Shown: in pieces, positions 43,933-53,074 of the stretch
How positions within the stretch are numbered: the stretch's first letter is position 1
Layout of the letters: each line of letters starts with the position of its first letter
Assembly (NCBI RefSeq): GCF_003626595.1
Contig: NZ_RBAK01000016.1
Span: 62,001-126,000 of the forward strand
Origin: Micromonospora endolithica
Lineage (GTDB): Bacteria > Actinomycetota > Actinomycetes > Mycobacteriales > Micromonosporaceae
DNA: 64,000 nucleotides
Direction of reading: 5' to 3'
Translations under genes and position numbers: made by a program
The notes under the pieces: generated by a model
What the model was told of the DNA's origin: nothing
What the model saw: the letters and a program-made list of their open reading frames with translations, nothing else
Database searches by the model: none

Positions 43933-45063
43933 TCAGCGGCGGAAGGACCGCCGGACCACCCCGCCGACCAGGACGCACCAGGTGTCGGTGGTGACCTTGC
44001 CGTTGCGCGGCAGCCGGTGCAGCTCCTGCAACTCCTGGACGGCCTTCCGGGTGGCGTGGTCGTACTCGCCGGTGACCGTGACGTCGGGGTAGCCCCGGAA
44101 GACGAGCAGGTCCTGGATGGCGGTGACCGGCAGGCCGGACGCGTGCTTGTCCAGTTCCGGGGCGAGGGTTTCCCAGGTCGGCGCGGTGAGGGTGGCGTCG
44201 ACGTCGACCGGGATGCCGTTGCGGGCCTGCCAGTCCTGCACGGCGGCGACGGTGGCGGCGTCGAACACCCCGGTGGTCGGCACGGCGTAGCCCCGGTGGG
44301 CCAGCAGGTACTGCGCGAGGCGGACCGTCGGCGCGCTGACGAACCGCCACAGGTCCGGCCAGCGGCGGGCCGGCACGTCGGCCAGGTCGGTGCCGAGCGC
44401 GGTGAAGACCCGCCGGCGCAGGGTGGGGAACTGTCGGTAGAAGGCGGCGCCCGGGCACTGGGTGGTGCGGAAGTCCCAGTGGCCGAAGATGTCGTGGGCG
44501 TGCAGCCCGTACTGCCGGCAGATCGTCACGCAGAGCTTCACCAGCGAGTCGAGCAGCGCCTCCGGCGGTGTCTCGGTGACGTACGTGCCCTCGTTCTCGA
44601 TGCCGATGGCCCGGCCGTTCTCGCCCGGGCAGTGCGCGGAGACCATCTGCCGGTCGCCGGCGGCCAGCCGCTCCAGACTGCCGCGCCGCCCCTCCAGCAC
44701 GTACCCGCCGCGGCTGATCGTGAAGTGCTGCCCCGTGTCGGACCAGCCGTTGCCGTCGATGTGCAGGTCCTGGCAGTCGCGGGCGAGCTTGACCGCCTGC
44801 GCCTGGGAGTAGTCGGTGACGTTGGGGAACGCCATGTGGTGCACGATGATCTTGTTGGTGGGGATCGTGCTGACCGACAGCGGGTCCTTGGGCGGCCGGG
44901 CGCCCCACTCGTCGCAGCTCAGGATCCAGTCCAGGTCGGTGCCGGGATCGGCCCGCGCGGCGCTGGGCAGGGCGAGTTCGGTCCCGACGACCGCGACGGT
45001 GGCGGCGCCGAGGCCGGCCCGCAGCAGGGTCCGGCGGTCCAGTTCGGAACGGTCGACGGGCAT
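43933..45063 (-). CDS. Exported N-acetylmuramoyl-L-alanine amidase with peptidoglycan-binding repeats
   Basis: A 376-aa exported protein. The N terminus SELDRRTLLRAGLGAATVAVVGTELALPSAARA is a Tat-type signal with an RR pair. The amidase_2/PGRP domain at about 46-210 includes WGARPP, IIVHHMAFPN (zinc His), IGIENEGTYV and FGHWDFRTTQCPGAAFY. Two C-terminal peptidoglycan-binding modules follow (about 235-295 and 310-370: YLLAHRGYAVPTTGVFDAATVAAVQDWQ and LLVFRGYPDVTVTGEYDHATRKAVQELQ). It would cleave the stem peptide from MurNAc outside the cell. ATG 45063 has GAGGAGA upstream; a longer open frame to 45120 is not used. Confidence 0.92.
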   Translation of the reverse strand: MPVDRSELDRRTLLRAGLGAATVAVVGTELALPSAARADPGTDLDWILSCDEWGARPPKDPLSVSTIPTNKIIVHHMAFPNVTDYSQAQAVKLARDCQDLHIDGNGWSDTGQHFTISRGGYVLEGRRGSLERLAAGDRQMVSAHCPGENGRAIGIENEGTYVTETPPEALLDSLVKLCVTICRQYGLHAHDIFGHWDFRTTQCPGAAFYRQFPTLRRRVFTALGTDLADVPARRWPDLWRFVSAPTVRLAQYLLAHRGYAVPTTGVFDAATVAAVQDWQARNGIPVDVDATLTAPTWETLAPELDKHASGLPVTAIQDLLVFRGYPDVTVTGEYDHATRKAVQELQELHRLPRNGKVTTDTWCVLVGGVVRRSFRR

Positions 45064-45188
45064 GACATCTCCTCGGCGTCCGGTGGAGGGGGCCGGGAGC
45101 CCTCTGAAAATCAGCTCCATTCCCCCTGCGTCCCGTGGAGGATATTGCCAACCGTGCGCCCGGCGCCAGACCCCGGGCCGCGGCGGAT

Positions 45189-49051: not shown

Positions 49052-50719
49052 GTGACCGGTTGGCGGCTCTCCGGCTACACCACGGTCCGACAGCTCGGCG
49101 CCGGTGCGTCGGGCCGCGTCGACCTCGCCGTCCACGACGCCACCGGCACGCCGGTGGCGGTCAAGTATCTGACCGCCGGCATCGGCGACGATCCCTCCTT
49201 CCGGGACACGTTCCGCGCCGAGGCGCGGCTGCTGGCCGACATCGACGACCCGCACGTCTCGCGGCTGTACGAGTACGTCGAGTCGCCGGCCGGCGCGGCG
49301 ATCGTGATGGAACTGGTGAACGGCGTCTCGCTGCGACAGATGCTGCGCGCGCACGGGGCCACCACCGGTGAGTCCGCGCTGTGCGTCCTGAAGGGGTCAC
49401 TGGCCGGGCTGGGCGCCGCCCACGACCGGGGCGTCGTGCACCGCGACTACAAGCCGGAGAACGTGCTCGTCACCGCCGAGGGTGCGAGCAAGCTGGCCGA
49501 CTTCGGCATCGCCATGCCGGTCGGCGAGGACTCCGGCGGCAGCGTCACCGGCACCCCCCGCTACATGGCGCCGGAACAGTGGACCGGGGCGCCGGCCAGC
49601 CCGGCCTGCGACATCTACGCGGCCACCGCGACCTTCTACGAGTGCGTCACCGGTCGGCCGCCCTACGACGGCCGGGACCTGTTCACGCTGCGCCGCCAGC
49701 ACGCCGAGGACCCGGTCCCCACCGACCTGGTGCCCCCGCCGCTGCACGAGCTGCTACGCCTGGGCATGGCCAAGCGGCCCGACGAGAGACCACAGCCCGC
49801 CCAGGTCTTCCTCGCGGTGCTGGAGCAGGTCGCCGCGGACGCGTACGGGCCGCGGTGGGAGGAGCGGGGGCTCGCCGAACTGGCCCGGCGGGCGGCCCTG
49901 CTCGCCGCGCTGTTCCCGTTCCCCGACGGCACCGCCGGCGCCACCAGCGTGGCCAGCACCCGGCTGGGCGGGGGCGCCGGCCGGTTCGGCCACCTGCGTA
50001 CCGGCCGGGCCCGACCGGCCCTGCTCGCCGCCGGCGTCGTGGTGGCGTTGCTGCTCGGCGGCGCCGGCCTCAGCTACGCCGCCCGCGACGCCCCGCCGGC
50101 CACCGCGGTCGGTGACCCCGAGTCGGTCGCCGGCACCACGGTCGGACCCCCCGCCGGCCCGGCGCCGGTCACCGGCACGGTGGCACCGACCGGCACCGCC
50201 GGTCCCCCGGCGGGGACCACCCCGACCGCCCCGACCACCGCCGCCGCGCCGGCTTCGCCAGACGAACCGACCGGCGGCACCGCGCCGACCACCCCCGCCG
50301 CCCCACCCACCTCGGCACCGGCGACGACCCGCCCGACGGTCACCACCAGCCCGCCGCCCCCACCGGACCGGGTCGCGCCGACGGTCGAGAAGGTCGGTGC
50401 CGACCCGACGGTCCTCGACCCGGCCGGTTGCCCGTACGGGCCCACCGCCAGCACGGTCACCGCCGTGGTCACCGACGACCGCTCCCCGGCCGGGCAACTG
50501 CGGGTCAGCCTCCGGTACACGGTGGAGAAACGCGGCGGCGCGGTCACCATGACCTCCGTCGGGCGCTCGCGGTTCACCGGCGTCCTCGGCGACCTGCCCC
50601 GACCGGGCAGCACCACCCGGATACCGGTCACCGTCGTCGCGGTCGACGCCGCCGGCAACACCTCGGCGCCGAGCCCGCCGCTGTACGTGACCCTCTACTC
50701 CTTCTGCACCCCCGGCTGA
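49052..50719 (+). CDS. Transmembrane Ser/Thr protein kinase with extracellular domain
   Basis: A 555-aa Hanks-type kinase. The kinase lobe spans residues 7-260: Gly loop LGAGASGRV, Lys38 in VAVKYL, Glu57, HRDYKPEN (Asp132, Lys134, Asn137), DFG at 150-152, and GTPRYMAPEQW. A juxtamembrane part leads to one membrane helix at about 323-344 (PALLAAGVVVALLLGGAGLSYAA), then an outside Pro/Thr-rich stretch (about 350-440) and a beta-sandwich-like domain with Cys460 and Cys552 that could pair. GTG 49052 with GGGAGAGG. The two following genes carry cytoplasmic threonine motif arrays, making them likely substrates. The linker VTSPPPPP region is unstructured. Confidence 0.93.
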   Translation: MTGWRLSGYTTVRQLGAGASGRVDLAVHDATGTPVAVKYLTAGIGDDPSFRDTFRAEARLLADIDDPHVSRLYEYVESPAGAAIVMELVNGVSLRQMLRAHGATTGESALCVLKGSLAGLGAAHDRGVVHRDYKPENVLVTAEGASKLADFGIAMPVGEDSGGSVTGTPRYMAPEQWTGAPASPACDIYAATATFYECVTGRPPYDGRDLFTLRRQHAEDPVPTDLVPPPLHELLRLGMAKRPDERPQPAQVFLAVLEQVAADAYGPRWEERGLAELARRAALLAALFPFPDGTAGATSVASTRLGGGAGRFGHLRTGRARPALLAAGVVVALLLGGAGLSYAARDAPPATAVGDPESVAGTTVGPPAGPAPVTGTVAPTGTAGPPAGTTPTAPTTAAAPASPDEPTGGTAPTTPAAPPTSAPATTRPTVTTSPPPPPDRVAPTVEKVGADPTVLDPAGCPYGPTASTVTAVVTDDRSPAGQLRVSLRYTVEKRGGAVTMTSVGRSRFTGVLGDLPRPGSTTRIPVTVVAVDAAGNTSAPSPPLYVTLYSFCTPG

Positions 50720-50761
50720 CCGGGGCGACCACGTCGACCACCAGGACGGAGGCGGGCCGCG

Positions 50762-51997
50762 ATGAGCCAGCCGCACGACGCCACCGAGGCGCTGCCCACC
50801 CGACGGATGCCCGCCGCCGGTGACCCGACGGTGCGCCTGGACGCGCACCCCGCGGCGTCCCCGCCGGACGAGCCGACCGTCCACCTGCGGTCCGACCGGG
50901 CCACCGGCCACGGCACCCCGGAGGAGGCCACCATCCACCTGACCGCCGACCAGGCGACGACCCGGCTGGTCGTGCCGTCCGGCCCGGACGACGCGGCGAC
51001 CGCGCGGCTCGCCGTGCCACCGGGTCCGGACGAGGAGGCGACGACCCGGCTGGTCGTGCCGTCCGGCCCGGACGACGCGGCGACCGCGCGGCTCGCCGTG
51101 CCACGCGGTCCGGACGAGGAGGCGACGACCCGGCTGGCCGTGCCGCCCGGCCCCGACGACACGGCCACCGCGCGGCTGGCCCCGGCCGACGAGGCGACCA
51201 CCCGGCTGGCTGCGTCCACGGCCGACGAGGCGACCACCCGGCTGGTCGGCACGGGTCCTTCCGGAGCGGGGGAGGCCACCGTCCACCTACCGGCCGACGT
51301 CGGCGCGACGTACCCCGCCGCGACCGGACACCTCGACGCGACCGTCCACACCGGCCCGGGACGGTCCACGGCGCACCGGCCGGGGGAGCCGACCGGGGTG
51401 AACCGCACCGGCACGTACGGGCGGCCGACGTCGGCGGCGTCCACCGGGACCGGCGCGGCGCGGGTGGGCGCGTCGGGGCGTACCGGATCGGGTGTGGCCG
51501 CCCAGGCGGGCGGTGAGGTGCGGTTCGGGCCCGGCGTGCCCACCACGCCGCCGCCCGCGCCCGCCTGGCCGGTCTCGCCGCCGCCCCGCCGCCGGCCGGT
51601 CTGGCGCCGGCTGACCTCGCTGCTGTCCGGCCTGCTCACCGTGGTCCTGGTGGTCGTCGTCGGGCTCTACCTGTGGCAGCGGCTGCGCCCCCTGGAGGTC
51701 GACGGTGTGACGGTGGCGACGCCGCCGCCGGCCGGATGCGACGCCACCGTGGACGTGGTGGCGACGGTGGCCACCAACGGCCGGGCGGGGGAGATCCGCT
51801 ACCAGTGGCTGCGCTCCGGCAGCACCCCGGGGACGCTGCTCACCGAGCGGGTCGGCTGGGGTCAGCGGAGCGTGACGCTGACGTTGCGGTGGGCGTTCAG
51901 CGGCGTCGGTGCCGCCAGCGAGACCGCCACCGTCAACATCGTCTCCCCGTCCGCGATGCAGGCGCAGACCCCGGTCCGGTACGACTGCCGGGGCTGA
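50762..51997 (+). CDS. Membrane protein with cytoplasmic array of TxxL threonine motifs
   Basis: A 411-aa protein I do not recognise as a named family. Residues 1-275 are cytoplasmic, low-complexity and acidic, with 12 T-x-[RH]-L motifs, each with an acidic residue or Gln/Ala/Thr before it: Thr23, 39, 57, 66, 80, 94, 108, 122, 136, 146, 158 and 173. Six of them are exactly 14 residues apart. A basic Pro-rich stretch (PPPRRRPVWRRL) leads to a membrane helix at about 286-304, followed by an outside Ig-like domain with Cys326 and Cys409. The T-x-x-L form is the phosphothreonine motif preferred by FHA domains. It lies 42 nt after the kinase gene. Confidence 0.8.
   Translation: MSQPHDATEALPTRRMPAAGDPTVRLDAHPAASPPDEPTVHLRSDRATGHGTPEEATIHLTADQATTRLVVPSGPDDAATARLAVPPGPDEEATTRLVVPSGPDDAATARLAVPRGPDEEATTRLAVPPGPDDTATARLAPADEATTRLAASTADEATTRLVGTGPSGAGEATVHLPADVGATYPAATGHLDATVHTGPGRSTAHRPGEPTGVNRTGTYGRPTSAASTGTGAARVGASGRTGSGVAAQAGGEVRFGPGVPTTPPPAPAWPVSPPPRRRPVWRRLTSLLSGLLTVVLVVVVGLYLWQRLRPLEVDGVTVATPPPAGCDATVDVVATVATNGRAGEIRYQWLRSGSTPGTLLTERVGWGQRSVTLTLRWAFSGVGAASETATVNIVSPSAMQAQTPVRYDCRG
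50954..51178 (+). repeat. 42/84-bp tandem coding repeat of the TxxL array
   Basis: Five 42-bp units (residues 65-134) plus a partial sixth. Copies 50954-51037 and 51038-51121 (84 bp each) differ at only one or two positions, showing recent duplication; the third is more diverged. Every unit gives one threonine motif. Confidence 0.85.
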
Positions 51998-52081
51998 CGC
52001 GTCCCGCGGGTCCGGTGTTTCCGGCGCGGGTCACCCGGGTAGGTGCGGCCGGACAACGGATGCGCGTAGTGAGGACGAGGG

Positions 52082-53074
52082 ATGACAGACAGATTCGGCG
52101 ACGCGGTGGGCGACGCCCTGCGCTCGGTGATGCTCTTCCTGCCGAAGGCCGTGGCCTTCGTGGCGATCCTGGTGGCCGGCTGGCTGATCGCCAAGGCGGT
52201 GCTGAAGATCGTGGACAAGGTGCTGGAGCGGGTCGGCTTCGACAAGGCCGTGGAGCGCGGCGGGATCCGGCGGGCGCTGGCCCGCTCCCGCTACGACGCC
52301 AGCGACATCGTGGCGAAGCTCGCCTACTACGGGGTCCTGCTGGTCACCCTCCAGCTGGCCTTCGGCATCTGGGGCCCGAACCCCATCTCCGACCTGATCG
52401 CCGGCGTCGTCGCCTGGCTGCCGCGTGCCTTCGTCGCGATCGTCATCGTGGTGGTCGCCGCCGCGATCGCCAACGCGGTGCGGGACATCATCGGCGGTGC
52501 CCTGGGCGGGCTCTCCTACGGCCGGATCCTGGCCACCATCGCGTACGTGTTCATCCTCGGTCTCGGCGTCATCGCCGCGCTGAACCAGATCGGTGTCGCC
52601 ACCGCGGTCACCACCCCGGTGCTGGTCGCCGTGCTGGCCACCGTCGGCGGCATCCTCGTCGTCGGGGTCGGCGGTGGCCTGGTCCGCCCGATGCAGAGCC
52701 GCTGGGAGTCCTGGCTGACCCGCGCCGAGCAGGAGTCGCAGCTCATCGCCACCCACGCCCGCGCCTACCAGGCCGGCCGCCGGGACACCGCGGCACACCT
52801 GGCCGGCGCGTCCGACACCACCCAGGTGGTGCCGCCCGCCGCCGGGGACACCGGCCTCTCCGACGTGGAGGCGACGCAGGTGGTGCCGCGTCCCGCCGAC
52901 GCCGACATCACCCAGCCGGTGCCGCGCGGCGCGGCCGGCTCCACGTCCGGTGCGGACACCACCCAGGTCAGCTCGCGGGCCGGGAGCATCCCGACGCAGC
53001 CGACCGCCGAGGACGCCGAGGACGCCGAGGCGACCATGGTCATCCCGACCGATCCGGAGAAGTACCGCCGCTGA
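52082..53074 (+). CDS. Mechanosensitive-channel-like membrane protein with threonine-motif tail
   Basis: A 330-aa membrane protein of the small conserved-TM-helix/CmpX-MscS-like type, with four or five helices: about 16-40 (VMLFLPKAVAFVAILVAGWLIAKAV), 80-96, 106-133 (VVAWLPRAFVAIVIVVVAAAIANAV), 147-170 and 176-200. After TRAEQESQL the C-terminal 85 residues are cytoplasmic, acidic and unstructured, with Thr247 and Thr265 (TQVVP), Thr277 (TQPVP), Thr294 (TQVSS) and Thr318 (TMVIP) in the same setting, each after an acidic residue. These look like kinase acceptor sites. ATG 52082 has GACGAGGG upstream. It is the third gene of the kinase module. Confidence 0.82.
   Translation: MTDRFGDAVGDALRSVMLFLPKAVAFVAILVAGWLIAKAVLKIVDKVLERVGFDKAVERGGIRRALARSRYDASDIVAKLAYYGVLLVTLQLAFGIWGPNPISDLIAGVVAWLPRAFVAIVIVVVAAAIANAVRDIIGGALGGLSYGRILATIAYVFILGLGVIAALNQIGVATAVTTPVLVAVLATVGGILVVGVGGGLVRPMQSRWESWLTRAEQESQLIATHARAYQAGRRDTAAHLAGASDTTQVVPPAAGDTGLSDVEATQVVPRPADADITQPVPRGAAGSTSGADTTQVSSRAGSIPTQPTAEDAEDAEATMVIPTDPEKYRR

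Follow-up and report, generated by a model that had tools for sequence, protein, structure and literature searches.

Organization of the locus

In the present study, we analysed a stretch of 64,000 nucleotides from Micromonospora endolithica, here called the window, in which a Ser/Thr kinase gene is followed by the gene of a membrane protein bearing an N-terminal array of threonine motifs (the array protein) and by a gene for a multi-TM protein (Table 1).

Table 1. Features of the kinase-array locus and its neighbour, in positions of the window
Feature	Position	Strand	Evidence
Ser/Thr protein kinase, transmembrane, 555 aa	49052..50719	+	Pfam Pkinase 6.2e-43, catalytic motifs, one TM segment
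Kinase outer beta domain, predicted, Ig-like (aa 439-555)	50366..50716	+	AlphaFold2, Foldseek, Pfam matches in relatives
Array protein (411 aa) with a threonine-motif array at the N-terminus, a single TM helix and an outer domain	50762..51997	+	
T-x-[RH]-L motif array, T23 to T188	50828..51334	+	13 matches versus shuffle mean of 0.24
DNA tandem repeat, 42/84 bp unit, within the array	50952..51181	+	Tandem Repeats Finder
Single TM helix of the array protein (aa 284-302)	51611..51667	+	Hydropathy; basic residues on the N-terminal side
Outer beta domain of the array protein, predicted	51674..51994	+	AlphaFold2, seven strands
Multi-TM protein containing PF05552 helices; a non-obligate neighbour of the pair	52082..53074	+	PF05552 5.3e-17
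T-Q/M-x-V/I motif tail of the multi-TM protein	52814..53044	+	4 strict matches plus TMVI; tails of relatives

The kinase matches the Pkinase family over residues 9-252 and carries the catalytic motifs VAVK, HRD, DFG and GTPRYMAPE, and its one hydrophobic segment lies at residues 323-341. No PASTA family was matched by the kinase in Pfam, and identity with the PASTA kinases (PknB/Stk1) was rejected, as NF033483 gave 188 bits against a cut-off of 450 in a match confined to residues 9-263. The outer domain was modelled by AlphaFold2 with a mean pLDDT of 93.9 and nearly all strands. Its Foldseek matches to Ig/Fn3 folds were weak, with one at E <0.001 (best 8e-4). In addition, 11 of 28 relatives of this domain match Invasin_D3 and some weakly match Big families; the window's own domain matched neither.

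The array protein matched no Pfam family above the cut-off and no NCBIfam family. Within its residues 1-275, the count of T-x-[RH]-L never rose above 3 in 2000 shuffles, and the 17 T-x-x-[LVI] matches compare with a shuffle mean of 4.75 and a maximum of 12. The array given in the preliminary description was thus found again, with 13 motifs and not 12, the extra one being T188. Five K/R are present in the 15 residues before the TM helix and two after it. With the basic residues on the N-terminal side of the helix, the threonine array probably faces the cytoplasm and the C-terminal domain is probably outside. This outer domain was predicted with a mean pLDDT of 90.9, and all of its Foldseek matches had E >0.001 (best 4e-3), CARDB being among them with a TM-score of about 0.6. 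Homology of the two outer domains was rejected (profile comparison probability 0.3%), and the models suggest at most a broad beta fold in common.

The DNA of the array contains a tandem repeat with an 84-bp unit in 2.7 copies (94% matches). The motif copies of the window are therefore not independent, and tandem duplication inflates the motif count in the window; for this reason, the motif tests described below rely on relatives with diverged spacers. A similarity search of the own genome for a second array protein returned no hit besides the protein itself and an antisense match attributed to chance (E 0.7), in a kind of search that would overlook an array of different sequence.

In the third protein, PF05552 (conserved TM helix) was matched in two stretches. 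No MscS core domain was found among the Pfam matches up to E 1, and the NCBIfam msc model gave 43.6 bits against a cut-off of 100. With PF05552 only, the protein was not assigned to the MscS mechanosensitive channels, and "channel", as used here, is a loose name. Residues 211-330 hold 4 T-[QM]-x-[VS] motifs, a number reached by 0 of 2000 shuffles, and 6 T-x-x-[LVI] motifs, where the shuffles average 2.0 and 5 of the 2000 attain 6. Five T-[QM]-x-[VS] motifs had been described earlier; four fit strictly, and the fifth, at T318, reads TMVI with I at +3.

Co-occurrence of the kinase and array genes

The array protein was matched in 46 of 101 genomes of the genus (a profile of the C-terminal part gives the same number), in 21 of 101 genomes of the family and in 36 of 394 genomes of the class, two of the latter within the genus; the first pass of these screens scored part of each genome's candidates, and the absences may include misses. 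Three of the 46 genus matches were short remnants (G110, G113, G181). The relatives at 53 named loci belong to Micromonospora (with Verrucosispora), Actinoplanes, Paractinoplanes, Streptomyces, Kitasatospora and Actinacidiphila.

Of the 101 genus genomes, 47 contain the kinase outer domain. The kinase is present in each of the 43 genomes that have a full array gene; four hold the kinase without the array, and 54, including the three remnant genomes, hold neither. The earlier claim of a transmembrane kinase beside a membrane protein with a motif array was borne out. The array-less kinase genomes are those of loci L132 and L134, where the channel gene lies directly downstream of the kinase, and G134 and G146. 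The kinase gene was directly upstream of the array gene in all 23 genus loci. In other genera of the family, it shared a strand with the array-protein relative at a distance of up to about 4 kb in 15 of 17 loci, and L056 and L060 carry such a relative with no kinase near. Outside the genus, the kinase was nearby in 9 of 9 class-level loci examined, taken from 34 matching genomes. Among the named loci, 51 of 53 have the kinase or its outer domain, and in the remaining two, open remnants (64 and 37 residues) immediately precede the channel gene. At locus L054, both the kinase and the array genes appear frame-shifted, by error or decay.

A tree built from 44 channel genes requires 8 changes of the kinase and 9 of the array. 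In 5 independent pairs that differ in the kinase across well-supported branches, the array followed in 4.7 on average and never went the opposite way; with 5 pairs, the sign test cannot go below 0.0625. These findings indicate that the kinase and the array gene form a real two-gene unit, with partners that are adjacent and co-inherited, as is the case for a cognate pair such as PknF-Rv1747.

We also asked whether the Amidase_2 gene at 43933-45120 goes with the pair. It lies close by in 10 of the 23 loci of the genus, but elsewhere only in one of the 6 Streptomyces-type loci and in none of the Actinoplanes-type (15), other-family (17) or class-level (9) loci, and because of this rarity outside the genus the link was dropped. 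The Amidase_2 protein carries peptidoglycan-binding domains, and its gene adjoins the pair in one Actinacidiphila locus (L193).

Separate inheritance of the channel gene

The search for the three-gene order was fruitful within the genus, as the channel gene follows the kinase and array genes in 21 of 23 loci. Outside the genus, no channel gene was found beside the pair in the stretches examined at 38 loci (17 from other genera of the family, 15 Actinoplanes-type and 6 Streptomyces-type). The channel gene itself was matched in all 101 genus genomes, with 11 of the best matches above E 1e-115, which is the level of the paralogue. In most of the pair-less loci compared, it still stands before an MFS gene, often with the amidase upstream.

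In 18 channel-only loci, which are a choice from the pair-less genomes (L125-L131, L133, L135-L144), every tail holds 3 to 12 motifs (mean 6.4). The 49 complete tails of full loci, in which some genomes are counted twice, hold 0 to 8 (mean 4.2). Two kinase-only loci have 4 and 6 tail motifs, two remnant loci have 3 and 4, and the channel paralogue of the own genome (L198) has one. Retention of the motifs in pair-less loci means that the kinase is not needed for keeping them, and the earlier proposal that this kinase marks the channel tail found no support, since channel and motifs persist in 18 of 18 loci where kinase and array are missing. Hence, the channel gene is inherited separately from the kinase-array pair and is a neighbour only. 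We also observed that, in the loci examined, the tails are richer in T-Q-V-V (up to 12) where the pair is missing, which may be compensation or a lineage effect.

Conservation of the threonine motifs

The Micromonospora-type set comprised 31 N-termini, namely that of the window and those of 30 named loci, with two from Verrucosispora and one from a further member of Micromonosporaceae. The acidic-T-x-x-hydrophobic motif occurs 3 to 16 times in them, the window having the highest count, and 28 of the 31 exceed all 200 shuffles. The 15 Actinoplanes-type loci have 0 to 6 motifs, with none in 2 of them; 2 of 15 exceed all shuffles, and in 9 of 15 the count was reached by at least 10 of 200 shuffles. 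The six Streptomyces-type loci have 1 to 5 motifs, and none is above all shuffles. Around the threonines of the Micromonospora set, the preferred residues are D/E at -2 (3.6-fold), P at -1 (2.4-fold), hydrophobics at +1 (2.1-fold), R/H/K at +2 (3.0-fold) and hydrophobics, mostly L, at +3 (2.9-fold). In the offset control, a hydrophobic residue was found at +3 in 261 of 634 cases, as compared with 37 to 66 at +2 and at +4 to +8; position +1 was also high (195 of 635).

In ten aligned pairs, some of which have a member in common, the motif threonine was retained in 77 of 84 cases and other threonines in 96 of 123. In seven disjoint pairs, counted both ways, which makes the p-values too small, the motif threonine was kept in 116 of 124 cases versus 142 of 191 for other threonines, and the +3 hydrophobic in 108 of 123 versus 130 of 209 for other hydrophobics; for the acidic residue, the values of 127/157 and 75/102 did not differ significantly (p 0.17). 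Furthermore, the codons of T (ACC/ACG) and of the +3 residue (CTG/GTC/CTC/CTA) vary, and array length and spacers are variable among relatives while motifs of the [DE]-x-T-x-x-[L/V/I/F] type stay, in differing number. Threonines with a hydrophobic residue at +3 have thus been retained by selection, which is what an FHA-docking platform of the MviN-FhaA kind would call for.

The class-level relative L213 carries six E-x-T-[RE]-V-L units, a separate expansion on the same membrane anchor, so that a different repeat unit follows the same grammar as the array of the window. The class-level relatives L218 and L219 have a short N-terminus only, with a single SATVLGSHWF stretch, which means that the pair can do without the array. 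The stretch EYSAT[VA]LGSHWF is kept in L215, L216, L218 and L219, even where the array is missing, and is perhaps a candidate for a fixed docking site.

Pseudokinase-like relatives in sister genera

In the other genera of the family, 15 of 17 relatives (L055-L069) were read as having a pseudokinase-like N-terminus in place of the array; the exceptions were L052, of the array type, and L054, whose frame looks shifted. Four typed examples matched Pkinase at 6.6e-5 to 0.012, below the curated cut-off, and one such domain matched PDB kinases at 3e-7. By reading, HRD is replaced by HGD, HGA or HGE, and DFG is missing. As far as sequence goes, this domain would be a bacterial pseudokinase, with a kinase fold and lost catalytic residues. 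The linker behind it holds, under a rough rule, one to three acidic T-x-x-hydrophobic sites in 11 of 15 loci and none in 4 (ESTTLLPG and EETVQLAG are examples), and it frequently contains an ATR[LM]G stretch without the +3 hydrophobic.

FHA proteins in the genome and the genus

FHA domains read the hydrophobic residue at +3 from the phosphothreonine. The pT+3 position is labelled in the available part of PMC5549992. The own genome holds 5 FHA stretches, on contigs C4, C5, C10 and C11, and the preliminary description had called for a check of FHA-domain genes near the pair, which came out negative, as none of the five is on the window's contig (C16). One stretch sits in a protein of 150 residues with DVTSTLNL at the N-terminus, which we take, by inspection, to be of the GarA type; another FHA protein of the genome is, on the same footing, presumably FhaA-like. 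Each of the 101 genus genomes carries between 3 and 7 FHA stretches, the average being 4.49 with the array and 4.34 without it (p 0.24). An extra FHA gene travelling with the array was rejected, as the array genomes show no excess.

Discussion

The pair is most likely a kinase together with its multisite substrate, as judged from the order of the genes, their joint inheritance and the retained motifs. Our search of titles and abstract openings found no Micromonospora phosphoproteome, and among the open-access papers searched in the same way, it found none on this gene pair. The reading that we favour, and hold to be on balance probable, is a membrane signalling unit in which the array would be phosphorylated by the kinase and would serve as a docking site for FHA proteins. 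The kinase would sense something outside through its beta domain and would phosphorylate the threonines of the array on the cytoplasmic side of the membrane. Once phosphorylated, these threonines would then hold conserved FHA proteins (GarA-like, FhaA-like) at the membrane, with a strength that may be set by the number of phosphorylated sites, and this number would change by tandem duplication. The motif tail of the downstream multi-TM protein would probably be phosphorylated by another kinase, if at all.

The same pairing and motif evidence fits a kinase-substrate unit without FHA docking, in which multisite phosphorylation would alter the charge or shape of the tail, set a threshold or buffer the kinase, with the outer domain or the kinase itself receiving the signal. 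We consider this rather unlikely, and it gains from the fact that no FHA gene is nearby or enriched and that the predicted outer beta domains of both partners could touch. Simple charge switching would not need the hydrophobic residue at +3, the position that FHA domains read, but a preference of kinases themselves for Leu/Val at +3, as described in the accessible sections of PMC7164672, would explain this residue equally well. The earlier reading went further and had one kinase mark both arrays and gather FHA proteins at a membrane channel. The three-gene order within the genus speaks for it, as do the T-x-x-hydrophobic motifs after acidic residues in both regions. However, the channel motifs persist, in more copies, in the channel-only loci, the channel gene is missing beside the pair at the 38 loci examined outside the genus, the tail motif (TQVV/TQPV) is unlike the array motif (TV[HR]L), and an MscS core domain match is lacking, so that we hold this reading to be very improbable.

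The array could also be a functionless low-complexity repeat whose apparent conservation comes from recent duplication and shared ancestry. The tandem repeat of the window and the wide range of motif number among the 31 loci agree with this, but the motif threonine and the +3 residue outlast other threonines and hydrophobics, their codons vary, and the distant relative L213 repeats the grammar with another unit; this explanation is already disfavoured and seems improbable. Returning to the unit with FHA docking, it may tentatively be extended, with considerable doubt, to an evolvable phosphothreonine antenna, in which duplication would tune the number of docking sites from none or few to about 16, giving a graded multivalent FHA switch that would replace the pseudokinase scaffold of the sister genera. 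If this is true, the array protein would be a cognate multisite membrane substrate of a kinase with a valency differing between species, and the natural variants would allow the number of docking sites to be tested in bacterial phosphothreonine signalling. It would also suggest that, on the same membrane anchor, a motif array can take the place of a pseudokinase scaffold and vice versa.

Comparison with known systems

Phosphothreonine sites of M. tuberculosis are given, in the part of PMC7164672 at hand, with acidic residues at -1 and at -3 to -6, Pro at -1 and +2 and Leu/Val at +3. The array motif agrees partially with them: it shares Pro at -1 and Leu at +3, whereas its acidic residue is found mainly at -2, which is not among the positions given in that part. 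MmpS3 of M. tuberculosis, likened here by description and not by sequence, has 16 phosphosites in the same part of PMC7164672 and so is a counterpart of the array protein as a putative multisite substrate, with the difference that no cognate kinase neighbour is claimed for it. The array protein, moreover, has one TM helix. MmpS3 is likewise a single-pass membrane protein.

For a mechanism in the style of a kinase and FHA docking, PknF-Rv1747 and PknB-MviN-FhaA of M. tuberculosis are precedents, as far as the available parts of the sources describe them. PknF and Rv1747 are encoded in a two-gene operon (PMC3908365, in part) and show clustering (excerpts of PMC9312465 and PMC8573418). The likeness lies in the placing of a kinase next to a membrane protein, in phosphorylation of the cytoplasmic part of that protein and in a kinase-driven multivalent assembly at the membrane; in the present pair, phosphorylation and assembly are putative. 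Rv1747 has two FHA domains and an ABC transporter, whereas the array protein matches neither and has many motifs instead. An FHA ABC transporter of the Rv1747 type was rejected, as Pfam found no FHA domain or ABC ATPase in the array protein or the third protein.

In the PknB-MviN-FhaA system, according to the portion of PMC12599244 at hand, the phosphorylated cytoplasmic part of a membrane protein recruits an FHA protein. The pseudokinase-like domain that stands in the array's place in sister genera recalls MviN-FhaA, since MviN carries such a domain as well. MviN is a flippase with a pseudokinase, whereas the array protein has one helix, an array and no pseudokinase, and would recruit FHA proteins only on our reading. 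Membership of the MviN family was rejected, as no flippase or pseudokinase family of Pfam was found in the array protein.
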